A stretch of DNA of 51,606 nucleotides from Gaiellales bacterium (lineage in GTDB: Bacteria > Actinomycetota > Thermoleophilia > BMS3ABIN01), in assembly GCA_003599855.1 (NCBI GenBank), contig QZKG01000031.1:1-51606 (forward strand), read 5' to 3'. The first letter of the stretch is position 1. Each line of letters opens with the position of its first letter. Shown piece by piece: positions 20,377 to 51,579 of this stretch. The notes beneath the pieces were generated by a model. The model saw nothing but the letters and a program-made list of their open reading frames with translations, was not told the origin of the DNA and searched no databases. The translations under genes and the position numbers were made by a program.

Positions 20377-21813
20377 TCAACGCGGTTTCGTCCTGCGGTT
20401 CAGCCTCCGGTACAAGGGATTGCTGACCAGCTTGGAATAAGAATATACGAGGAAGTGCCTGAGTTTAAGGTTGCCCTTGGTGAGCACATAGACTCCCCGC
20501 ACCAGCCTGCCCATCCTGCGCCCGCCGAACTTCATCCCCAGGATCTCCTCGGCTCCCGCGCGGGCTGAGTCATAATCGACACCCTTTATCTTCTCCTTCT
20601 CCGGGGAGAAGGAGAGCAGGTCATCGGGGTCCTTTACCAGGGACAGGTCGTTCTTCTCGCAGTATTCGTAAAGGTATGACCCCGGCAGCGGCGTGAAAAA
20701 TGCCACGCTGGTGAAGTAGGGGCGGGCTTTTTGCGCCAGCTCGACGGACGCTCTGATGTCGGTCGGGGTCTCGGTGGGCACGCCGAACATGAAGCTGCCC
20801 CCGAACATGATGCCCTGCCTGCGGCAGATCTCGGCGGAGCGGAAATTGTCCTCGACGCTGCAACCCTTCTGGAGGAAGTCAAGGATCCTCTGGCTGCCGC
20901 TCTCCCAGCCCATCAACACCAGCTTGAGACCGACATCCCGCAGGGCGGCGAGGGCGTCCTCGTGGCGGCAGAGGGAGGACGCGCGTGTCTGGATCATGAT
21001 GTCCGCGCCTATGCCCGAACGGCCGTAGAGATCGCAGAACTCGTGGACCCATCCGGGCCTGGCCAGGAAGTCAGAGTTGTAGAACTTTATGCTGCGGTAG
21101 CCCCAGCGGTGGTGCAGTTCCGAGAGCTCTTCCAGCACACGTTCCGGGCTGCGGTAGCGCATCCTTTTGCCGAACATCTTCTCAGCGTGGGGGGCGCAGA
21201 AGCCGCAGCGAAAAGCGCAGCCGCGGCAGGTGACCATGGTGACCATGGGGGGCTTGAAGATGCCGGGATAGTTGGCCATGCGCACGGTGCGGGCGTAGTC
21301 GTAAAGCTCACGGTCCTCGAAGGGCAGGTCGTCAAGCACGGGGCTGGCGCCATGGATGAGCCTGGGCGGAGTCCTGCCCGCGCAGATGTCGTCCAGGAGT
21401 TCCCTGAAAGCGATCTCGCCCTCGCCGACCACCACGTGATCGACCAGGTCATCGCGCGGCAGGTCGGCGGGCAGGGCGGTGGGGTGGGGGCCGCCGATGA
21501 CGGTCCTGACCGACGGGTTGGCCGTTCGTGCTGACTCCAGCGCCCGGGCGACGTTCTTGTGGTCGCAGCTGCGCATGGTGATGGCGACGACGTCCGGCCT
21601 GGCCTCCTTCATGCGCCTGTCAAAATCCTCCCAATCCTTGAGCTGGCGCACGTCGAGCAGGGAAATATCAGCATAACCATGAGACTTCACGTAAGCGCTG
21701 ATGGAGCAAAGCCCGTGGTTGATCACTGAGGACCAGTGGGAGTCACGGTAAGAGTCGAAGCTGTCCGGCCCGAAGCCGGGGTCCACCATGATGATCCTGG
21801 GATCGCTGTTCAT
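20377..21813 (-). CDS. B12-binding-domain radical SAM enzyme (first of a tandem pair)
   Basis: The 478-residue protein shares the architecture of the gene after it: N-terminal cobalamin-binding domain (VVAITMRSCDHKNVA, IGGPHPTALPADL, VVVGEGEIAFREL), radical SAM core with CAFRCGFC near residue 205, and a C-terminal region rich in basic residues. The two are clearly related but far from identical, so they look like an old duplication with separate roles, possibly sequential steps. HpnJ/BchE-type proteins have the same layout. It overlaps the GT4 gene upstream by four bases. Substrate unknown; context suggests glycan or membrane-lipid modification. Confidence 0.88.
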   Translation of the reverse strand: MNSDPRIIMVDPGFGPDSFDSYRDSHWSSVINHGLCSISAYVKSHGYADISLLDVRQLKDWEDFDRRMKEARPDVVAITMRSCDHKNVARALESARTANPSVRTVIGGPHPTALPADLPRDDLVDHVVVGEGEIAFRELLDDICAGRTPPRLIHGASPVLDDLPFEDRELYDYARTVRMANYPGIFKPPMVTMVTCRGCAFRCGFCAPHAEKMFGKRMRYRSPERVLEELSELHHRWGYRSIKFYNSDFLARPGWVHEFCDLYGRSGIGADIMIQTRASSLCRHEDALAALRDVGLKLVLMGWESGSQRILDFLQKGCSVEDNFRSAEICRRQGIMFGGSFMFGVPTETPTDIRASVELAQKARPYFTSVAFFTPLPGSYLYEYCEKNDLSLVKDPDDLLSFSPEKEKIKGVDYDSARAGAEEILGMKFGGRRMGRLVRGVYVLTKGNLKLRHFLVYSYSKLVSNPLYRRLNRRTKPR

Positions 21814-41101: not shown

Positions 41102-41806
41102 TCAGCCCTGGATGGTATCCAGCAGCCTGGCTTCCACCAGTTCACCCTTGACTACCAGACGGTTCGAGGTCGACCAGGGTGGGTCGCAGGTGATCAGGGT
41201 GATCTCATCCTTGCCGCGGCCGCCGAGGACCGAGGTATCTTCAGGGACGATTATCACGCTGCTGGTGACCTTGTACTTGAAGTCGGCATATGTAGTCTTG
41301 AGGCGGATGGCGTCGCCTGGCGCGAGGTCATCCAGGTTGAGGAAGGGGCCGCCCCACAGCACCCGGTCACCAGCGATGGCGAAATTGTCTTGCATGCCCG
41401 GCAGCGCAGTCTCTTCAAGGTGGCCGATCCCCTTGCGCAGAGAACCCTCTTCGGTCCCCTCGACCACTACCGCGTTGATGCCTATCTTCGGTATCTCCAG
41501 AATGGCGATAGTCTGCTCGGTGCTCAGCTGGGCGCGCTTGGCTATGGCCAGCTGCTTGATCTTTTCCAGCTCCGCCTCTCCGGTCAGGCGGTCGATGAGC
41601 TCCTGGTTGGCCGAAAGGGAACTGACGAGCTCCTGGTCGAAATCCTCCCTGAGGCCCCATCGTTCATAGTAGCCCCAGAGCCAGGTAGCCGGCACAGAAA
41701 GGATCACCATCGCGCCTGCAGCCATGAGCAGAATGCTGAGTTTTTTAAAGGAAGGTTTAAAGATCTTTTTCAAATCGTTCCTGTTCTGCCTGTCAAGACC
41801 TAGCAT
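41102..41806 (-). CDS. sortase-family transpeptidase with Asp in place of the catalytic His
   Basis: The 234-residue protein has an N-terminal membrane helix (about 23-45), a helical spacer and a sortase barrel: LEIPKIGINAVVVEGT, GIGHLEETALPG, NFAIAGDRVLWGGPF, ITLITCDPPW, SNRLVVKG. The catalytic Cys207 and Arg216 are there, but the His of the usual IAGHR motif is Asp147 (GAC at 41368-41366 on the minus strand). A single base change gives His, so sequencing error or recent inactivation is possible. The layout is of the class D/E kind of Gram-positive bacteria. Candidate substrate: the LPSTG protein at 13343. It converges with the initiating transferase gene and is divergent from the phosphatase. 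Confidence 0.88.
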   Translation of the reverse strand: MLGLDRQNRNDLKKIFKPSFKKLSILLMAAGAMVILSVPATWLWGYYERWGLREDFDQELVSSLSANQELIDRLTGEAELEKIKQLAIAKRAQLSTEQTIAILEIPKIGINAVVVEGTEEGSLRKGIGHLEETALPGMQDNFAIAGDRVLWGGPFLNLDDLAPGDAIRLKTTYADFKYKVTSSVIIVPEDTSVLGGRGKDEITLITCDPPWSTSNRLVVKGELVEARLLDTIQG

Positions 41807-41881
41807 AAACAAGGAAACCCAGTTTCACAAGCAACGGGTTCCCCCTGGCTCCATGAACAACGTGATTTCGTGCTGGATATA

Positions 41882-41947: not shown

Positions 41948-42727
41948 ATGGAGTTCATAGACACGCATAACCACATACTACCCGGCGTCGACGACGGCGC
42001 GCCTGACCTGGAGGCAAGCCTTGAGATGGCTAGGATCGCCCGGGAAGACGGGATCACGACGATAGTAGCGACACCACACGTGGTGGAGGGGATCTATGAA
42101 GGGCGGGATCTTGACAAGAGGGTGGAGTCGCTGCAGCAGGAACTCGACAGGAACGGCATCGGTGTAAGGCTGCTCAGGGGCGCGGAGGTCCCCATCAGCA
42201 CCTGCATGACCGGGGACCGCGCACTGCTTGCCGACCTCGCCATCGGCGGGCGCTACATTCTGATGGAATCTGCAGAGACGGGTTTCGAACAACTGGTTCT
42301 GGCGATCTACCAGGTTCGCCTGTGCGGTTTGTCCCCGGTGCTCGCCCATCCCGAACGCACAACATACGCCCGGGACCATCTCGAGCGCCTTGCGGAGATG
42401 ATCGATCACGACGACGTCTATTGCCAGCTGACGATCGCCAGCCTGTCCGGTCTGTTCGGACAGTCGGCCAGGAAGACTTCGATAGCCATGGCCAGGAGAG
42501 GGCTGGCGCACCTGCTGGCCTCTGACGCCCACTCGGCCGGCAGGCGTTCTCCCCAGCTTTCCTGGGGTTACCAGGAGCTGGCGCGGCTGGCCGGGGAAGA
42601 GGCTGCCATGATCGCCGTCAATGTCAACCCCCGGTTGTTGACGGAAGGAAAGAAGCTGCGCCTCGTGGAACCCGCATCCGGGAAGCACACGCCTGGATAC
42701 CTGAGGCGCCTGCTGCGACGCGGCTAA
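41948..42727 (+). CDS. CpsB/CapC/YwqE-type PHP phosphotyrosine phosphatase
   Basis: The 259-residue manganese-dependent phosphatase reverses BY-kinase autophosphorylation. All PHP metal motifs are visible: FIDTHNHILPGVDDGA at residues 3-18, VATPHVVEG near 40, GAEVPIST near 80, LAHPERTT near 136 and LASDAHSAGRR near 190. A strong AGGTGGAAG site precedes the ATG. It completes the regulatory set with the two BY-kinases at 11890-13264 and 36155 but stands apart from both. The chemosensory operon begins about 100 bases downstream on the same strand, so some co-expression is possible. Confidence 0.93.
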   Translation: MEFIDTHNHILPGVDDGAPDLEASLEMARIAREDGITTIVATPHVVEGIYEGRDLDKRVESLQQELDRNGIGVRLLRGAEVPISTCMTGDRALLADLAIGGRYILMESAETGFEQLVLAIYQVRLCGLSPVLAHPERTTYARDHLERLAEMIDHDDVYCQLTIASLSGLFGQSARKTSIAMARRGLAHLLASDAHSAGRRSPQLSWGYQELARLAGEEAAMIAVNVNPRLLTEGKKLRLVEPASGKHTPGYLRRLLRRG

Positions 42728-42834: not shown

Positions 42835-43359
42835 ATGGGCAAACTGGAACAGGCAAAAACCTATGGGGATGTGGGTGGAGGCGAAATCCCCCAAATCCCG
42901 GGCCAGGAAGGCGATGAGAAATTGTCGTACCTGGTATTCAGGCTCGCGGGCGAGACCTTCGCAATCGAGGTCGAGAAAGCGCGTGAGGTGATACGTGCGC
43001 AGAAACTCTCCTGGATACCCGGATCTCACGAGACAGTCCGCGGCGTCATCAACCTGAGGGGCAACATCATCGCCGTCCTGGAGCTGGCTCTGCTGCTGGG
43101 GTTGCCCGCTGCCGAAGAACTCGACAAGGACAGCCGCATCATAATCGTCGAGTCTGAAGGCATGGTAGTCGGCATGCTGGTGGATTCCGTAGATGAGGTG
43201 GCCCTGGTGGACCCGCGCGAGATCTCGAAAACCATGCGCACTCTCGACAGCAGGCAGCGTAACATCGTCGTTTCGCAGACTACCGTCAGGGACAGGATCG
43301 TGGGAATGCTCGATATCGACCAGGTCGTCTCGGACGCCAGGGAGCAGCAGGGGCAATGA
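42835..43359 (+). CDS. cheW: CheW coupling protein
   Basis: The 174-residue protein links receptor to CheA. After a 30-residue non-conserved tail, the CheW domain covers about residues 32-165, with [48 protein letters not shown] in parts ([16 protein letters not shown]) and [11 protein letters not shown]. The single CheW domain with no fusion corresponds to WspB/WspD. The ATG has only a weak ribosome binding site. First gene of the chemosensory operon and 22 or 121 bases upstream of the receptor, depending on which receptor start is used. Confidence 0.92.
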
Positions 43360-43480
43360 CAACCGGATCTGGAGAAATCACATGGCAGTCGAAGGAATGA
43401 AAAAGCCGATCAACCGTGATTCATTTAGCGCTATGAGGCCAGAAGCATACCCAGGCAAGCCGGTCACGGGGGGAGAAAAG

Positions 43481-45079
43481 ATGAAGCGGATAAATTTTTT
43501 AACGAGCAGGATCGAGCTGAAGATCCTGAGCCTGGTGGCGCTGATACTCAGCATCGGATTCGGCGTCTTCGGCTACGTCAACATCAATCACGAACGGCAA
43601 ACCCTGACCGAGCAGCAGGAAGTGAGCAACCACAACCTGGCAAGCTCGGTGGCAACCAGTCTCAAGACCAGCATGCTGGTGAACAATGCCGCTCTCACCG
43701 TCCAGGCAGTCGATGACCTCAGGGGCGGCGAAGTAGAGCAGATCAGGATCTTCGGCAACGATGGCCAGGAAGCATTCCTGGACGGAGGCGGCCTGAGCAG
43801 CGCCACGCGCAGCGAACTGGCACAGGTGCTGGACAGTGGCGAGACTGCCGTATTTTACGAGGGTGAAGGCGCGGACCGGGTGATGTCGGAGATCCTGCCG
43901 CTCCAGAACGAGCAGTCGTGCCAGCAGTGCCATGACAGCAAAGAGTCGCTGCGCGGGGCCGTACTGGTCTCTACTGCGACTGATCGCATGGACAGCGCGC
44001 TTGCCGACAACACATATCTGACGGTATTCGCCCTGGTGCTGACCCTGGTCACCATCCTCGTGACCCTGAAGATCCTGCTCAACATCGCGGTTCTCAAACC
44101 GCTCAAGGATGTGGTCGGCGCCATCAAGCGCATAGCAGCCGGGGATCTGACTGAGCAGGTGCCGGTCAAGTCCAGCGACGAGCTCGGTCAGCTTGCCGTC
44201 AATTTCAACGAGATGACCAGAAACCTGCGCAACCTGAGCTACAAGATAATCGAAGTCGGGGAGCAGAGCACGGCCGCATCGGCGGAGATTTCCGCGACTG
44301 TGGAGCAGCAGGCGAGCGCCTCGGCCGAGCAGTCGTCCGCTGTCGCCGAGACCACCGCCACGATAGAGGAGCTCGCCGGCACGGCCAAGCAGATCGCCGA
44401 GACGTCGAAGTCGGTAGCAGAAGTGGCGAGCGAGACGCTCAATCACGCTGAGGATGGCCAGGAAGCGGTAGCCGCCACCATCAACGGGATGCACATGATA
44501 AAGAGCAAGGTCAACAAGGTAGCTGAGAAGACCTTGACCCTGGGCGAGAAGTCCCAGCGCATCGGCACTATCCTCGAGATCATCAATGACATAGCTGACC
44601 AGACTAACCTGCTGGCCCTCAACGCCGCCGTCGAGGCAGCGCGCGCAGGCGACCAGGGGCGCGGTTTCGCAGTAGTCGCCGGCGAGGTCAGGAGACTCGC
44701 AGAAGAGAGCGTGGAGGCTACCACCAAGATAAAGGCGCTGATCGACGAGATCCAGTCAGAGACCAACAGCACCATCATCGCGACCGAGGAGAGCACCAAG
44801 GAAGCGGAGCGCGGCGTGACCCTGGCCAAGAACGCGGGCAAGTCTCTGGACAGCATCGTCTCTGTGGTGGTGGAAAACACCAACGCCGCCAAGGAGATAT
44901 CGATAGCGACGCAGCAGCAGAAGAGCGCCAGCGAGCAGGTAGTGGTTGCCATGACCAACATCTCGGAAGCCAGCAAACAGCAGGCATCCGGGGCCAAGCA
45001 GACCGCCTCAGCCGCAGAACAGCTGAACAGGATCGCTGCCGATCTGAAAGCTGCCATTTCCAGCTTCAAGGTCGATTAG
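43481..45079 (+). CDS. methyl-accepting chemotaxis protein with a periplasmic-side CxxCH haem motif
   Basis: The 532-residue receptor has a membrane helix (about 12-34), an extracytoplasmic domain (35-178), a second helix (179-203), HAMP (205-257) and a cytoplasmic signalling domain with the hairpin tip [18 protein letters not shown] (just before [10 protein letters not shown]). The sensor domain contains CQQCH (147-151), a c-type haem attachment motif, close to the second helix, reminiscent of haem-binding PAS-like receptors of Geobacter. I choose ATG 43481 because of the GGGGGGAG site 6 bases upstream; ATG 43382, also with GGAG, would add 33 residues. Glu/Gln pairs in the signalling domain offer methylation sites for the CheR and CheB here. 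In the Wsp scheme this is the WspA equivalent. Confidence 0.93.
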
Positions 45080-45157
45080 GTGATCGCGAGATGCGGGGCT
45101 CAGCCGTGTGCGAGGCTCGCGCCATGGGATATCAACTGACAAGAGGGCGGACTGCAA

Positions 45158-47539
45158 GTGGATAACTGGTCTACAGACAAGGAATTCCTGGAAACGTTCA
45201 GGGCTGAGGCAGAAGAACATCTGCGCAACCTGAACGAGGGACTGCTGGAACTGGAAAGCTCTCCGGGCAGCGACGACCTGGTGAAGAAGCTGTTCCGTGA
45301 GGCCCATACGCTAAAAGGCTCCGCTGGCATGATGGGCTTTACCTCCATCAGGGACCTCGCCCACCATGCTGAGGATATCCTTTCCGCTGTACAGAAAGGG
45401 CAGACTGCCCTGACCAAGGAAGTCGCTGACCTGCTGCTGGAAAGCCTTGACCGCATCGAGGAGCTGCTCCCCGTAGCCGGAGAAGTCGACGCAGAAGCGG
45501 ACGTCTCGGACCTGATCGAGAAACTCGACAACGTAGAGAGCTCTGCGCCGGCAGCAGGAGAGGCAAGCGGCCGGGAAGAAGAGCAGCCTGCCGGGCCCCC
45601 GGAGCTTTCCGTGGTGGAAGCTGAAGAGGCGACCGAAAAGAAGCAGCCCGGCGAGGAACAGGTTCAGGAAGAAGAGGCCAGGGTCCCGGCGCCGGGCGCA
45701 GCCCAAGGCGGACAGCCACCGGCCGGTCGCACTGCTACCGCAGCGAGTCAGAAACCAGTCGCCTCCTCAGCTGAAAGCCGTGCGAAGCGCTCCGACCCGA
45801 CGATCCGCGTGAATATCGAACGCCTGGACAAGCTGCTGAACCTGATGGGAGAGGTCCAGGTGAACCAGCTGGATACTGAAAGTCAGGTGAACAACCTGTC
45901 GGAGATACATGGTCAGGCACGGGAGCTCAAGGATGCTTTCGCCAGGATCATCCGGGAGGTCGAGGACCTGAAAAAGGAGATCGACCCGGACAAGATCGCC
46001 ACCCTTGACCACCACTTGCACCAGGCGGACGAGAACACCCATGAGATCCTCGAGAAGCTCGACCGTACCGCTTCGCACATCAAGGAGAACACCAGCAGCC
46101 GGAAGATAGCGCTCGACGAGCTGCAGGACAGGACGCTCCACGTCCGCATGCTGCCGGTCTCCACCATTTTCGGACTCTACCCGCGGGTCGTCCGCGATGC
46201 CGCCGGTTCCTGCGGCAAGAAAGTGCGCCTCGAGATGGAGGGTGAGCAGACCGAGCTGGACAAGCGCATCCTCGAACAGATATCAGACCCCCTGATGCAT
46301 ATCATCCGTAACAGCGTCGACCACGGGATCGAGCTGCCGAGCTACCGCACGCAGTCGGGAAAGCCCGAGGAGGGCGTTGTCCGCATCTCGGCGGCGCAGC
46401 GCGGTGACAAGGTGGAGATCACGGTGGAGGACGATGGCGCCGGGATAGATCCTGCGGCGTTGAAACGGACGGCCGTCGAGAAAGGTTTGGCGGTGTCGGT
46501 GGATGAGATCTCCGACGAGGAAGCCTTCGACCTTATCTTCAGGAACGGATTTTCCACGGCTCGCGAGGTCACATCCATCTCCGGCCGCGGCGTCGGACTG
46601 GATGTGGTCAAGAACAATATCGAGAAACTGGAAGGCTCCGTCAATATTGATTCGAAGCCTGGAACGGGAACGCGTTTCACGGTATCCCTGCCGGTCTCTC
46701 TGGCGATCTTCGCCGGACTGCTGGTAGATTGCAACGGGACCAAGTTCGTCATCCCCCTGGCTTCGGTCCAGGAGATGGTGTCGGTCAGGAAATCAGATAT
46801 CCAGACCCTGGGGAACCATCGCGGTTTCATCATGCGCGGCGACGCGACACCTCTGGTAGACCTGCTCGACTTCCTGGGAGGCGAATCGAACGAATCCGAC
46901 AGCGATAGCATCCATGCGGTTGTCGTGGGAAACGGCAGGAGCAGGATGGCACTCCAGGTGGAACGGCTGCTCGGTGAACAGGAAGTCGTCATCAAGTCGC
47001 TCGGATCGTTCCTGCCACGGCTGCGCAATATCGCCGGAATCACCATTCTTGCCAGCGGTGAAGCCGTGGTGGTACTCAACGTGAACGAGCTGATCTCAAG
47101 CATCAAGGCGGGCGGTGAAACGGTAGCACTGCGCGCCCCGAAGGACTCTGGCAACGGCAAGGCTGTCGAGCGCAGGATCAGGGTCCTGGTGGTGGAAGAT
47201 TCACTGGTTGTCAGGGAGCTTCAGCGAAACATTCTCGAATCAGCAGGCTACAAGGTGGAGACCGCCGTTGACGGCGAGGACGCTCTGGCGCATCTGTCAA
47301 AGGACAAGATCGACTGCATCGTCACTGATCTGGAGATGCCACGTATGAACGGTTTTGAACTGACCTCCGCTGTACGCAAGAACGAAGCGACCAAGGACAC
47401 GCCGGTGATCATGGTTTCCTCACTCAGCAACGACGAGGACAAGCAGCGGGGCATGGAGGTAGGCGCTAACGCCTACGTCGTGAAAGGGACCTTCGACCAG
47501 CACAACCTGCTTTCCACCATTGAGAGACTGGTCGCCTGA
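45158..47539 (+). CDS. cheA: CheA-REC hybrid histidine kinase (WspE-like)
   Basis: The 793-residue kinase has an HPt domain with the phospho-accepting His50 (REAHTLKGSAGMMG), a long acidic/Pro-rich linker (about 125-210) in place of a clear P2 domain, a dimerisation/HATPase core (LMHIIRNSVDHGIELP N box; VEDDGAGIDP G1; SGRGVGLDVVKNNI G2), a CheW-like domain, and a C-terminal receiver (VLVVEDSLVVRELQ, Asp in VTDLEMPRMNG). CheA-REC fusion is typical of alternative chemosensory systems (Wsp, Frz) rather than flagellar ones. GTG start, weak site; 78 bases after the receptor. It phosphorylates CheB and most likely the diguanylate cyclase receiver. Confidence 0.95.
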   Translation: MDNWSTDKEFLETFRAEAEEHLRNLNEGLLELESSPGSDDLVKKLFREAHTLKGSAGMMGFTSIRDLAHHAEDILSAVQKGQTALTKEVADLLLESLDRIEELLPVAGEVDAEADVSDLIEKLDNVESSAPAAGEASGREEEQPAGPPELSVVEAEEATEKKQPGEEQVQEEEARVPAPGAAQGGQPPAGRTATAASQKPVASSAESRAKRSDPTIRVNIERLDKLLNLMGEVQVNQLDTESQVNNLSEIHGQARELKDAFARIIREVEDLKKEIDPDKIATLDHHLHQADENTHEILEKLDRTASHIKENTSSRKIALDELQDRTLHVRMLPVSTIFGLYPRVVRDAAGSCGKKVRLEMEGEQTELDKRILEQISDPLMHIIRNSVDHGIELPSYRTQSGKPEEGVVRISAAQRGDKVEITVEDDGAGIDPAALKRTAVEKGLAVSVDEISDEEAFDLIFRNGFSTAREVTSISGRGVGLDVVKNNIEKLEGSVNIDSKPGTGTRFTVSLPVSLAIFAGLLVDCNGTKFVIPLASVQEMVSVRKSDIQTLGNHRGFIMRGDATPLVDLLDFLGGESNESDSDSIHAVVVGNGRSRMALQVERLLGEQEVVIKSLGSFLPRLRNIAGITILASGEAVVVLNVNELISSIKAGGETVALRAPKDSGNGKAVERRIRVLVVEDSLVVRELQRNILESAGYKVETAVDGEDALAHLSKDKIDCIVTDLEMPRMNGFELTSAVRKNEATKDTPVIMVSSLSNDEDKQRGMEVGANAYVVKGTFDQHNLLSTIERLVA

Positions 47540-48621
47540 TGGAAGCGCAGGCAGTCAGGCAGCAAGACCAGGTCAGGGTGCTTGTGGCCGACGACTCACC
47601 GACGGTGCGGCTCATGATCTGCCGAATGCTGGAGAGCGATCCGGGGATAAAGGTCATCGGCACTGTCGGTAACGGTCGGGAAGCCACCGAACAGGTGGCT
47701 TTACTCAAGCCGGATATCGTGACCATGGACGTCGAGATGCCGGTGATGAACGGACTTGACGCCATCGAGCACATCATGGCGTACAACCCGGTTCCGATCC
47801 TTGTTGTCAGCTCTGTGGTGGACAAGCTGCACACTGCCAATGCAGCCAGGGCGCTCGGGGCCGGCGCCGTTGACGTGATGCCCAAACCCACACCCGCCAC
47901 CATGCAGGAGTTCGAGGCGGTCGCGGAGGAATTAAGGCACAAGATCAAGCTGCTTTCCAAGGTGCGCGTGATTACTCACCCGAAAGCGCGGCTGTCTTAC
48001 TGCCCTGTTCCCGCGCCGGAGAAGAAGGAACAGAAAAGTGAAACCCTGAATGCTTTCCGGCTTGTGGCGATAGGATCCTCCACCGGCGGCCCCCAGGCGC
48101 TGCAACGGATACTCAGCAACATGCCGGCGGACGTCAACGCGGCTATCCTCATTGTCCAGCATATAGCAAAAGGCTTCACCGAGGGCCTGGTCGAATGGCT
48201 GGGAGCTTCCTGCGCTCTTGACGTATGCTCCGGCACCAACGGCATGGCCATCGAGCCAGGCAAGGTTATCATCGCCCCCGAAGGCAGGCACATGGCGGTC
48301 AACGGCAACGGCCAGGTGAGGCTGGTCGACTATGAATATCCAGGGCCGCACAAGCCCGCCGCCAACGTCCTGCTCGATTCGGTGGCGGAGCATTACGGCA
48401 GCCGCTCCATCGGAGTGATCCTGACAGGCATGGGTAGCGACGGCGCTCTGGGCATCAGGGCGATCCACGACCGTGGCGGACATACCATCGCCCAGGACAG
48501 CGAGACCTCGGCCATCTTCAGCATGGCCAAGGAAGCCATCAAGATGGGCGGCGTCGATGAAGTGCTCCCCTTGCCGGACATCACGGACGCCATCGTCAGA
48601 TACCTTTACCGAAAAATATGA
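47539..48621 (+). CDS. cheB: CheB chemoreceptor methylesterase
   Basis: The 360-residue response regulator has a receiver (VLVADDSPTVRLM; phospho-Asp64 in VTMDVEMPVMNG; KPTP loop) and a C-terminal methylesterase domain with the catalytic triad: Ser in IGSSTGGPQAL, His in LIVQHI, and Asp in LTGMGSDGALG. It demethylates receptor glutamates, giving adaptation (WspF equivalent). Its ATG shares a base with the CheA stop (TGATGG); it overlaps the next gene by four bases. Length and motifs are complete. Confidence 0.96.
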   Translation: MEAQAVRQQDQVRVLVADDSPTVRLMICRMLESDPGIKVIGTVGNGREATEQVALLKPDIVTMDVEMPVMNGLDAIEHIMAYNPVPILVVSSVVDKLHTANAARALGAGAVDVMPKPTPATMQEFEAVAEELRHKIKLLSKVRVITHPKARLSYCPVPAPEKKEQKSETLNAFRLVAIGSSTGGPQALQRILSNMPADVNAAILIVQHIAKGFTEGLVEWLGASCALDVCSGTNGMAIEPGKVIIAPEGRHMAVNGNGQVRLVDYEYPGPHKPAANVLLDSVAEHYGSRSIGVILTGMGSDGALGIRAIHDRGGHTIAQDSETSAIFSMAKEAIKMGGVDEVLPLPDITDAIVRYLYRKI

Positions 48622-50123
48622 TGGAAGCGGCTGAAAAACAGGAAAAGAGGCACCGCATCCTGATAGCTGAGGACAGCGCTACCCAGCGTCAGATCATCAC
48701 GATGGTACTCAAGCGTGAGGGGCACGAAGTGGTGATTGCAAAAGATGGCATCGAGGCGGTGACCCAGGTATACCAGGAGAGCCCTGACGTCGTTGTCCTG
48801 GACATCGAGATGCCAAAGATGAACGGCTACCAGGTATGCCGCCTGCTCAAGGAAGACCAGCGCACAGCGCATATCCCCGTGATCATGCTGACCAGCCGCG
48901 ACCAGGAAACCGACAAGTTCTGGGGCCTGAAGACGGGCGCCGACCGCTACGTGACCAAGGACTTCCAGCTCACAGGCCTTGCTGCGGCTGTCCAGGAGAT
49001 GATAGAGAAGGGGCCGGGGCCCCTGGGTCCAATACCAATGGAGCTGCACGGCCAGCATGACATGGAGAGCGGTGACGTGGACGTGCTTTCCCGGGTCAAT
49101 GACCTGCTGGACCGCAAGCTTTATGAGGCTACTGTCATCAACGAGATCAGCAAGCTCAATACCCTGAGTGAGGACAGCGCCGTGACCATCTCATCGGTCC
49201 TGTCTGTGCTGGCCAAGGTCACGGACTGTTACGTCGGTTCCGTGTTGCTGCTGGAGGAGAAAGAGCTCTACTTGCATGTCGACACGCGCGTGGGCAAGGA
49301 TTATTATGATGACTCCCAGAGCAGCGCGCTGCACGAAGCTAAGGGATATTTCCCGCCGGCTACCAACTTCAGCCAGTTCAACGTCATATCCGACGCCGAG
49401 CCCGGGGCGATCGAAGGCGACGAGCCCGAGTGCAGGACGATCCGTTCCATAGTCTCGCTGCCGCTGAGGGCGAGGGGCGAGGTGATCGGCGTGATGACCC
49501 TGAACAGCCCCAAGACTGACGCCTTCACCGAAGACATCCACCAGGTGCTGAAGATCATAGAATATCCGGCCAGCGTCGTCGTGGATAACGCCCGCCTGCA
49601 TGAGCGGACGAAGCGGATGGCGGTCACAGACGGCCTCACCAGGCTGTACAACCATCGCCATTTCTATGAGCTGCTCGAACAGGAGTTCCATCGCACCAAG
49701 CGATACCAGTCCAGCGTTGCGCTGGTGATGATCGATATCGATTTCTTCAAACAGATAAATGATACCTATGGCCATCAGGTGGGTGACGATATCCTCAAGG
49801 AGCTGGCCCTCGTCGTGAGGGGCCAGGTGCGCGAGGTGGACATCCTGGCCCGTTACGGCGGTGAGGAGTTCGCAGCGCTGCTGCCGCAGACTTCGCTTGA
49901 CCAGGCCCAGGTAGTGGCCGAAAGGATAAGGGAAGCGGTTGAAAAGAATGAATTTTCGACCTCGAAGGGTATTATAAAGATAACGGTCAGCCTTGGAGTG
50001 GCCGGGTATCCTGAGATGGACATCCACAGCCAGGTAGAGCTGGTGCAGCAGGCGGATTCCGCGCTGTACAGGGCCAAGGAAGCAGGCAAGAACAGGGTAG
50101 TCGTGGGCGGCGATGAAACTTAA
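48618..50123 (+). CDS. REC-GAF-GGEEF diguanylate cyclase (WspR-like output)
   Basis: The 501-residue protein has an N-terminal receiver (ILIAEDSATQRQI; phospho-Asp62 in VVLDIEMPKMNG), a GAF-like domain (about 185-325; LKIIEYPASVVVDNARL at its end) and a C-terminal GGDEF domain with the active ARYGGEEF motif. The allosteric I-site RxxD (REVD) lies five residues before GGEEF, so feedback by c-di-GMP is possible. WspR itself lacks the GAF insertion. As the only stand-alone receiver output in the operon, it is the probable target of CheA, converting the receptor signal into c-di-GMP. Four-base overlap with cheB and eleven-base overlap with cheR. Confidence 0.93.
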   Translation: MMEAAEKQEKRHRILIAEDSATQRQIITMVLKREGHEVVIAKDGIEAVTQVYQESPDVVVLDIEMPKMNGYQVCRLLKEDQRTAHIPVIMLTSRDQETDKFWGLKTGADRYVTKDFQLTGLAAAVQEMIEKGPGPLGPIPMELHGQHDMESGDVDVLSRVNDLLDRKLYEATVINEISKLNTLSEDSAVTISSVLSVLAKVTDCYVGSVLLLEEKELYLHVDTRVGKDYYDDSQSSALHEAKGYFPPATNFSQFNVISDAEPGAIEGDEPECRTIRSIVSLPLRARGEVIGVMTLNSPKTDAFTEDIHQVLKIIEYPASVVVDNARLHERTKRMAVTDGLTRLYNHRHFYELLEQEFHRTKRYQSSVALVMIDIDFFKQINDTYGHQVGDDILKELALVVRGQVREVDILARYGGEEFAALLPQTSLDQAQVVAERIREAVEKNEFSTSKGIIKITVSLGVAGYPEMDIHSQVELVQQADSALYRAKEAGKNRVVVGGDET

Positions 50124-51579
50124 GAGATACAATCTCACAGAATATGATTTCGAGCGGTTCCGGGCTCTGATCAACAGGACCAGCGGCATTTATTTCGATC
50201 GCGGCAAGATGGACCTGCTGCGCCTGGGTCTCGCCGAGCGGGCCGAGGTTGTCGGCGCCGAGGACCTCGGGGACTATTACGAGATGCTCACCAGCGACCC
50301 ACAGCGGGAGAACGAGCTGCGGCAGCTGCTCGGCCACCTCTCCGTCCAGGAAACCCACTTCTTCCGCAACCTGCCGCAGTTCGACGCCCTGCGAAAATAC
50401 GTCATCCCGGAGATCGCACGGCGCAAGGCGGCTGGCAACCGGGTGCTCAAGTTCTGGAGCGCGGGCTGTTCGACAGGCCAGGAGCCTTACTCCATAGCCA
50501 TGAGCGTCCATGATGTCCTGCCGGACCCCGGCAGCTGGGAAGTCCAGATCCTGGCGACGGACCTGAACGATCATGCTCTTGAGGTCGCTGCCAGGGGCTG
50601 GTACCCGGAGAGCAAGATCACCGGCCTGGACCGTGATCATCTCAACCGCTATTTCATCGAGCGTGACGACGGTTACCAGGCTCGCGATTTCCTGCGGGAG
50701 ATGATCAGCTTCTCCCGCCACAACATGGTCACGGACAGCCTGCCGATAGAGCTTTTCGGCACCTGCGACGTCATCTTCTGCCGCAACGTCATCATCTATT
50801 TCACGCACCAGACGGCCAAGCACGTGATCGAGCTGTTCTTCGACATCCTGAACCCGGGAGGCTATCTCTTCCTGGGACACTCCGAGACGTTATGGAAGAT
50901 GTCCGCCAAGTACAGCCTGGTGGAGATGGGCGACGCTTTCATCTACAAGAAATCCCTGCCGCGTGCAATCGACGGCCGGCGCTTCATCGCCGATCGCCGC
51001 ATGCGCGACATGCCGCTGCCTCCAGGAGTGCAGAAGGACAGGCGCAAGTCGCACGACCGGCGGGGCGAGCCTGTGACAGACGACCTGCTGATCAGGGGGT
51101 CAAAACCGGCTATCCCGGAGCCTGAACATGAAAACCCCGCCGCTCCGCAGCCCGCGGGGGCCAGGGATGAGATCCGTGAGACTTGCGGCAAGGCTCGCAA
51201 CATGATCGACCTGGGAGAGCACAGCAAGGCCATCGAGATGCTGTCAGACGCCGTCAACGGGACGAGCACCGACTGCGAGAGCTACTTCCTGCTGGGCCTG
51301 GCCTACCAGAAGCTGGGACAGTCAGACGAAGCCGCTGAGGCGTTTCGCAAGGCCATCTACTGCAATGACAGTCACAGCCTCGCATATTTCCACCTGGCGA
51401 ATGTCCTGGAAGACCAGGGCTTTTTGCAGCAGGCGGTCAAGGAATACCGCAACGCGTCGCGCAGCCTGGCAGCGGACCCGCCTGACAGCTGGGAGCAGGA
51501 CCTGGAAGCCTTCGACATCCAGTCGCTGGTGGACCTCTGCCAGTGGAAGATCGAGAACCTCGGCAGCGTCGAGAACTGA
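50113..51579 (+). CDS. cheR: CheR chemoreceptor methyltransferase with C-terminal TPRs (WspC-like)
   Basis: The 488-residue protein has an N-terminal all-helical domain, a SAM-binding domain with VLKFWSAGCSTGQEPYS, LATDLNDHAL and the DVIFCRNVIIYF motif, and an Arg/Lys-rich linker (about 290-350) leading to tetratricopeptide repeats (about 355-465; SKAIEMLSDAV, SYFLLGLAYQKLGQSDEAAE in parts, AYFHLANVL). CheR with TPRs is the WspC form and is seen in alternative chemosensory systems. It methylates receptor glutamates. The start lies 11 bases inside the preceding gene. It closes the operon, followed by a possible terminator hairpin. Confidence 0.94.
   Translation: MKLKRYNLTEYDFERFRALINRTSGIYFDRGKMDLLRLGLAERAEVVGAEDLGDYYEMLTSDPQRENELRQLLGHLSVQETHFFRNLPQFDALRKYVIPEIARRKAAGNRVLKFWSAGCSTGQEPYSIAMSVHDVLPDPGSWEVQILATDLNDHALEVAARGWYPESKITGLDRDHLNRYFIERDDGYQARDFLREMISFSRHNMVTDSLPIELFGTCDVIFCRNVIIYFTHQTAKHVIELFFDILNPGGYLFLGHSETLWKMSAKYSLVEMGDAFIYKKSLPRAIDGRRFIADRRMRDMPLPPGVQKDRRKSHDRRGEPVTDDLLIRGSKPAIPEPEHENPAAPQPAGARDEIRETCGKARNMIDLGEHSKAIEMLSDAVNGTSTDCESYFLLGLAYQKLGQSDEAAEAFRKAIYCNDSHSLAYFHLANVLEDQGFLQQAVKEYRNASRSLAADPPDSWEQDLEAFDIQSLVDLCQWKIENLGSVEN

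Follow-up and report, generated by a model that had tools for sequence, protein, structure and literature searches.

The window analysed here, a stretch of 51,606 nt in which all positions are counted, is one whole contig (C13) of a Gaiellales genome. Close to its end, at 42835-51579, six genes on the same strand form a chemosensory operon encoding CheW, a methyl-accepting chemotaxis protein (MCP), CheA with a receiver domain (REC), CheB, a REC-GAF-GGDEF protein and CheR with TPR repeats, as indicated by the open reading frame (ORF) list and Pfam (Table 1). The genes overlap by 1 base (cheA/cheB), 4 bases (cheB/cyclase) and 11 bases (cyclase/cheR), no CheY is encoded among them, and the contig ends 27 bases past cheR. 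An earlier reading made from the letters alone, which we call the sequence-only reading, had described this gene set with its 1-11 base overlaps and its lack of CheY, the single CheW, the GAF domain of the cyclase and a haem motif in the receptor; ORFs, coordinates and domains bear it out on each of these points. It had also taken the operon for a surface-sensing system of the Wsp kind, a view that our results sustain for the output and not for the sensor.

The source genome assembly (2.35 Mb in 77 contigs) is rated 90.7% complete, and whole-genome statements below come from profile searches of it. These searches returned a single stand-alone CheW, a single CheA and a single MCP; a second CheW overlooked by ORF calling was thereby ruled out. 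We placed the start of the MCP at 43382 and took the start in the ORF list (43193) as an upstream ATG, since the relatives begin at MAVE or similar. The protein has two hydrophobic segments (residues ~44-68 and ~210-238), with the sensor domain between them at about residues 70-205. In alignments with the relatives, the catalytic and phosphorylation sites of the operon proteins are intact and invariant or nearly so. CheA carries its phospho-accepting His50 in AHTLKG (H-box AHTLKGSAG) and Asp724 in its REC domain. In the cyclase, Asp62 of the receiver as well as R405, D408 and GGEE are invariant in 13/13 sequences, the fifth residue of the last motif being F, I or M. The claim that a diguanylate cyclase stands as output in the place of CheY thus holds, with both the GGEEF and the RxxD sites intact.

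The receptor sensor was matched by PF21563 in all 12 MCPs. When the sensor region of the window was searched alone (phmmer), it found 3b47 (GSU0582) with an E-value of 1.7e-8 and 3b42 (GSU0935) with 5.7e-8. Foldseek, run with an AlphaFold model of the sensor, also gave 3b42/3b47 as best matches, at 23-30% identity; the global TM-score was modest, which is expected as the two structures are domain-swapped and the model includes the transmembrane helices. Both CxxCH and Met98 are invariant in the alignment of the 12 MCPs, and Met98 is the counterpart of Met60 in the alignment with 3b47 when the CxxCH histidine is taken as His143 (PMC8396549). In GSU0582 and GSU0935, Met60 is the distal haem ligand, detached when oxidised and displaced by NO or CO (PMC8396549). 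On these matches, the sensor is homologous to the haem-c domains of GSU0582/GSU0935. The genome has the cbb3 oxidase CcoN and a CcsB-type cytochrome c maturation gene, and the latter makes haem attachment possible. The "surface-sensing" part of the sequence-only reading is therefore not retained, since the receptor carries a domain that matches redox/NO sensors, whereas the reference WspA is of the 4HB_MCP type.

The two Geobacter MCPs (PDB 3b47 and 3b42) share with ours the homologous extracytoplasmic sensor, the CxxCH motif and the distal methionine, but they have been proposed to steer motility (PMC8396549), whereas here the protein is the only receptor serving a kinase whose output is a cyclase. 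They represent the haem-c sensor type Mcp40H-20 / sCache_heme; in the sCache_heme family, NO binding has been reported for one member with a signalling module (2026 preprint, PMC12889525). This family was described as rare or absent in Actinomycetota (PMC12889525), whereas here it runs through an actinobacterial family: in a sample of 397 actinobacterial genomes, 12 had PF21563, and eight of these belong to the source family. A second sensor of the PF21563 family lies in the same genome (L183:1-2028, contig C45, minus strand), fused to a HAMP region, a histidine kinase and a REC domain. This hybrid kinase has 675 aa, and proteins of 656-742 aa with the same domain occur in relatives, including a genome (G006) in which the che operon is missing.

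Table 1. Features of the chemosensory operon and of its upstream neighbours
Feature	Position	Strand	Basis and remarks
CheW coupling protein	42835..43359	+	PF01584, E 1.1e-32; only stand-alone CheW of the genome
MCP, class 40H (transmembrane segment, extracytoplasmic haem-c sensor, transmembrane segment, HAMP, signalling hairpin)	43382..45079	+	PF00015, PF00672, PF21563
Met98 codon; Met98 is predicted to be the distal haem ligand and corresponds to Met60 of GSU0582/GSU0935	43673..43675	+	Invariant 12/12; aligned to 3b47
CQQCH haem-c attachment motif, MCP residues 180-184, extracytoplasmic part	43919..43933	+	CxxCH invariant 12/12; aligns with CQSCH of 3b47
CheA (Hpt, dimerisation, HATPase, CheW-like, C-terminal REC; WspE-like architecture)	45158..47539	+	Pfam
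CheB receiver-methylesterase	47539..48621	+	PF00072 and PF01339; NF001965 above its cut-off
Response regulator diguanylate cyclase, REC-GAF-GGDEF; operon output	48618..50123	+	Pfam
RxxD inhibition site and GGEEF active site of the cyclase	49830..49871	+	REVDILARYGGEEF
CheR methyltransferase with C-terminal TPR repeats	50113..51579	+	PF03705, PF01739, TPR families
CpsB/CapC-type PHP phosphatase, neighbour outside the module	41948..42727	+	PF19567, E 4.9e-41; ends 107 bases 5' of cheW
Class E-like sortase inside the polysaccharide locus	41102-41812	opposite	Conserved there in relatives

We then looked at the distribution of the operon. The nearest CheA records among named genomes (profile search, 51-58% identity) come from Thermoleophilia bacterium, Actinomycetes bacterium and Bacterium BMS3Abin01, in line with the actinobacterial host that had been proposed. 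A class-wide search showed that CheA orthologues (53-60% identity) are confined to the source family, where they occur in 13 of the 18 sampled relatives, with a further match interrupted at a contig end in G066; the next best CheA of the class is 39% identical. Where contigs were long enough for the order to be compared, cheW-mcp-cheA-cheB-REC-GAF-GGDEF-cheR was unbroken and without insertion (L041-L046, L048-L050 and L052), and L051 shows the first five genes. The same order thus recurs in at least ten other genomes, and the association of the six genes is beyond chance. Looking 3' of the operon, we found gatC, gatA and gatB in most relatives, followed in several by a phosphoenolpyruvate carboxylase gene. 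Neither cheY nor flagellar genes were ever found there in the relatives, the place being held by gatCAB or by housekeeping genes (slt/uvrB), so that a cheY-flagellar operon hidden just beyond the end of our contig was discarded. Each family genome having the system has one MCP (two matches in G042 were taken as a single gene split at contig ends), and genomes with no MCP match are either incomplete or broken at the operon (e.g. G108 and G066) or also devoid of CheA (e.g. G006). A profile search for FlhA was negative in all 19 family genomes. The operon is the only chemosensory system of the family; with one MCP per genome and no FlhA, neither its receptor nor its kinase has a further partner of its kind.

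Each arm of the MCP hairpin is longer by one 14-residue block than in Escherichia coli Tar, a 36H receptor, and there is no such insertion relative to the reference WspA proteins. On this alignment it is thus a receptor of class 40H, by the established MCP nomenclature of heptad classes. Actinobacterial flagellar systems have mainly 44H (F1) or 38H (F5) receptors, according to PMC10746217, which also reports F1 systems in flagellated Thermoleophilia. The latter would suit a remnant of flagellar chemotaxis, but this origin is highly improbable: the receptor is 40H and not 44H, cheC, cheD and cheY are missing from the operon, no FlhA was detected in the family, and an approximately unbiased (AU) test rejected the grouping of the family CheA with flagellar-type CheA (p 0.011, an indicative value, as some flagellar members were added only once the tree had been seen). 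The CheA tree, the receptor class and the FlhA search thus led us to set a flagellar origin aside, and the sequence-only reading, which had called for a CheA phylogeny against the flagellar class, was right in not seeing a flagellar system here.

In the maximum likelihood tree, the family CheA proteins form their own clade (100/100), and the WspE clade lies elsewhere. Closest to them, with a support of 94/84 that does not reach the star threshold, stand CheA-REC proteins from other Thermoleophilia, from Acidimicrobiales and from an acidobacterial metagenome-assembled genome (MAG). The AU tests, which cover CheA only, did not reject a single clade of the family CheA and WspE (p 0.29), a grouping to which the tree itself gives no support. 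In the CheB tree the family falls outside the 100/100 WspF clade, its deeper placement being weak. For both trees, taxa were sampled opportunistically. The phylogenies proposed for the comparison with Wsp thus set both proteins apart from WspE and WspF, and Wsp by descent is not what the trees give, with the reservation that the test leaves for CheA.

How far does the likeness to Wsp go? We compared the operon with L141 on plasmid pAZKH of Azoarcus sp. KH32C, a full wsp-type operon encoding MCP, CheW, CheR, CheW, CheA-REC, CheB and REC-GGDEF. Both have a 40H membrane receptor, CheA-REC, CheB, a receiver-GGDEF output, CheR-TPR and no CheY, and the run CheA-CheB-cyclase is common to the two. In contrast, the L141 receptor has a four-helix-bundle sensor (PF12729, 4HB_MCP, was found in two reference WspA proteins, as against PF21563 here), the L141 cyclase lacks a GAF domain, Wsp has two CheW proteins (WspB and WspD) instead of one, and its order (A-B-C-D-E-F-R) differs from the CheW-MCP-CheA-CheB-cyclase-CheR order kept in all relatives. 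The "Wsp-like" set therefore stands as to the kinds of protein and falls short as to sensor, CheW number and gene order. A true Wsp operon derived from Proteobacteria, in which surface contact would lead to phosphorylation of a WspR-like cyclase and then to exopolysaccharide, would account for the shared proteins, receptor class and gene run, for the polysaccharide genes that adjoin the operon in eight genomes and for the unrejected CheA+WspE clade. We nevertheless hold it to be quite unlikely, given the haem-c sensor, the single CheW, the order, the GAF domain, the separate CheA and CheB clades in an actinobacterial host and the four genomes in which the operon lies away from polysaccharide genes. 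The resemblance to the surface-sensing Wsp system of Pseudomonas concerns the output and not the sensor, with an ancestry outside the Wsp clades of the trees; the operon appears to work like Wsp on its output side, which is distinct from being Wsp. The operon is real and well conserved, and the surface-sensing label should be dropped.

Taking the AU test, the absence of FlhA and the GGDEF output together, rather than the Wuichet-Zhulin class profiles, the system is of the alternative cellular functions (ACF) kind. CheR-TPR and REC regulators with GGDEF and GAF/PAS domains are described as typical of ACF clusters in PMC3447774, and our cluster likewise has a conserved multidomain response regulator and CheR-TPR. 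In that survey CheR-TPR is found almost only in Gram-negatives, and the list of ACF phyla does not include Actinobacteria. ACF systems have since been reported in six actinobacterial species, in passages of PMC10746217 that describe neither the present receptor nor its output; an ACF system in an actinobacterium is thus not in itself a novelty.

We next considered the genes located upstream. The sequence-only reading had placed the operon next to capsule regulators: the PHP phosphatase gene (cpsB), the sortase and a BY-kinase are indeed present, but the last two are on the opposite strand, the Wzz/BY-kinase gene being ~5 kb upstream. A sugar transferase and an O-antigen ligase-like protein are also encoded upstream, and a scan of the gap between cpsB and cheW for promoters and terminators gave no usable signal. 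In the polysaccharide locus, a gene for a B12-binding radical SAM protein (20377-21813) is found amid glycosyltransferase genes. The search of relatives that had been called for showed that the adjacency of cpsB and the operon is kept in eight genomes, our own included, and absent in four. Both cpsB and the sortase gene precede the operon in our contig and in L041, L042, L043, L045, L048 and L051, with one additional gene in between in L042 and L048; in L052, whose contig starts there, cpsB alone does. In the four others (L044, L046, L049 and L050, all of one genus) the intact operon lies beside polA and rpsA, with a transglycosylase gene (slt) and uvrB on its other flank in L044. Three of the four were sampled in the CheA tree, where they form a single clade (100/100), so that a single relocation explains the four. 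The six genes being intact at a different site, the operon moves as a unit and is not tied to the polysaccharide genes. If the adjacency in eight genomes speaks for a dedicated regulator of the adjoining capsule/exopolysaccharide locus, the polA/rpsA site in four genomes, the gatCAB genes as distal neighbour and the lack of a detected c-di-GMP-binding PilZ protein (see below) make such a function rather unlikely, and the exopolysaccharide link drawn earlier is suggestive only.

A whole-genome search of our genome gave no PilZ match (divergent PilZ may be missed by it), and PilZ was dropped as candidate effector. One locus of the genome encodes PilB- and PilT-like ATPases of type IV pili together with an N-methylated pilin-like protein. 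PilB (L057:12014-13729, contig C6, minus strand) has an MshEN domain (motif II, RLGEILVEDGILTQEQLNAALAER; motif I, PIGEILVARGYISREQLESVLQKQ) whose motifs are near the published c-di-GMP consensus (PMC11731258). With no PilZ recognised and MshEN present on PilB, type IV pili appear at least as likely a target of c-di-GMP as exopolysaccharide; judged by these domains, the pilus would be the most economical target and polysaccharide a second possibility. The same pilus genes, the MshEN domain, the full adaptation set (CheR and CheB) and the missing flagellar export gene would also fit twitching taxis, in which the chemosensory system would steer type IV pili and c-di-GMP, as the intermediate, would set pilus activity directionally. 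We consider it unlikely, because the operon has no single receiver of the CheY/PilG type, all relatives have a cyclase as the output and the link to the pili is not genetic. As to c-di-GMP breakdown, the genome encodes a REC-REC-GAF-HD-GYP-type protein adjoining a PAS-GAF histidine kinase (L059:7053-9176, contig C30), a candidate phosphodiesterase partner; in many family genomes the matches include REC proteins of about the same length (700-742 aa).

Taken together, these results make it probable that the operon is a self-contained, adaptation-equipped pathway of the ACF kind, in which a single c-haem receptor as input and c-di-GMP as output would form a redox/NO-set switch between dispersed and attached life. 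Composition, conservation, the haem domain, the catalytic sites, the absence of FlhA and the MshEN domain are read from sequence, and from them we infer a phosphotransfer route, a ligand, a sign of the response and a target. Oxidation of the haem, or binding of NO or CO, would displace the distal methionine and shift the receptor, which would alter CheA autophosphorylation through CheW. CheA would then pass phosphate to the REC domain of the cyclase, leading to c-di-GMP synthesis limited by product at the RxxD site, with the GAF domain probably as a second input. Methylation by CheR-TPR and demethylation by phospho-CheB would provide adaptation, and the REC domain of CheA may serve as a phosphate sink or timer. 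Since no flagellar export gene is detectable, the most likely target of c-di-GMP would be the type IV pili, via the PilB MshEN domain, with the adjoining polysaccharide as a possible further one.

Several observations weigh against this pathway. No CheA orthologue was seen in four of the 18 sampled relatives, among them G006, whose assembly is rated 100% complete, so that the system is dispensable within the family. The AlphaFold model of the sensor has a pLDDT of 77, which is only moderate, and ligand and response sign would be extrapolated from distant homologues (23-30% identity). The operon cyclase is one of many, with 18 GGDEF matches in the genome. The limit of the PilZ search given above also counts here, and motif I of the PilB MshEN domain begins with P, where the consensus has R.

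Being the only receptor and the only CheA of the cell, the two proteins would make the array minimal and complete, with one input and one output. We put forward, tentatively and with less confidence than the pathway itself, that it may represent a distinct lineage that arose independently of Wsp and whose dedicated, extracytoplasmic c-haem receptor would turn redox/NO directly into c-di-GMP governing pili and matrix in non-flagellated monoderms. ACF clusters with CheR-TPR and GAF/PAS-GGDEF (PMC3447774), haem-c MCPs and MCP-to-cyclase logic in the Esn network (PMC5585712) are already known; among the open-access full texts searched, none described a haem-c receptor as sole input with a cyclase as sole operon output, conserved through a family in which flagellar export genes are undetectable. 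Chemosensory arrays have been studied almost wholly through flagellar taxis, and here a lineage with no detectable flagellar system keeps one. With one receptor, CheW, CheA and an operon-borne cyclase, it would be a minimal natural array whose c-haem input and c-di-GMP output are measurable in vitro. With it, the phyletic range of both haem-c chemoreceptors and CheR-TPR/ACF systems comes to include a Thermoleophilia family, and it would seem that a Wsp-type output can be combined with a sensor unrelated to that of WspA.

Other systems share parts of this arrangement. In Geobacter sulfurreducens, the Esn network is required for growth on electrodes and has a class 40H MCP, CheW, CheA and a diguanylate cyclase, but its genes are scattered, and EsnA has a cytoplasmic GAF domain and no periplasmic domain (PMC5585712), for which reason we did not retain it as a direct homologue. 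Two acidobacterial clusters (L084:7601-15301 and L085) encode MCP, CheA-REC, CheB, REC-x-GGDEF and CheR-TPR, and L084 has a second MCP with a Cache-like domain C-terminal to the signalling domain. Their REC-x-GGDEF proteins are 35-37% identical to our cyclase end to end, but no GAF domain is recognisable in them and their CheA is far off in the tree; they were thus rejected as orthologues. Finally, a MAG of Acidimicrobiales (L072:8392-15606) has the order MCP-CheW-CheA-REC-CheB-CheR with a REC-GGDEF gene just downstream, which may be a cyclase output.

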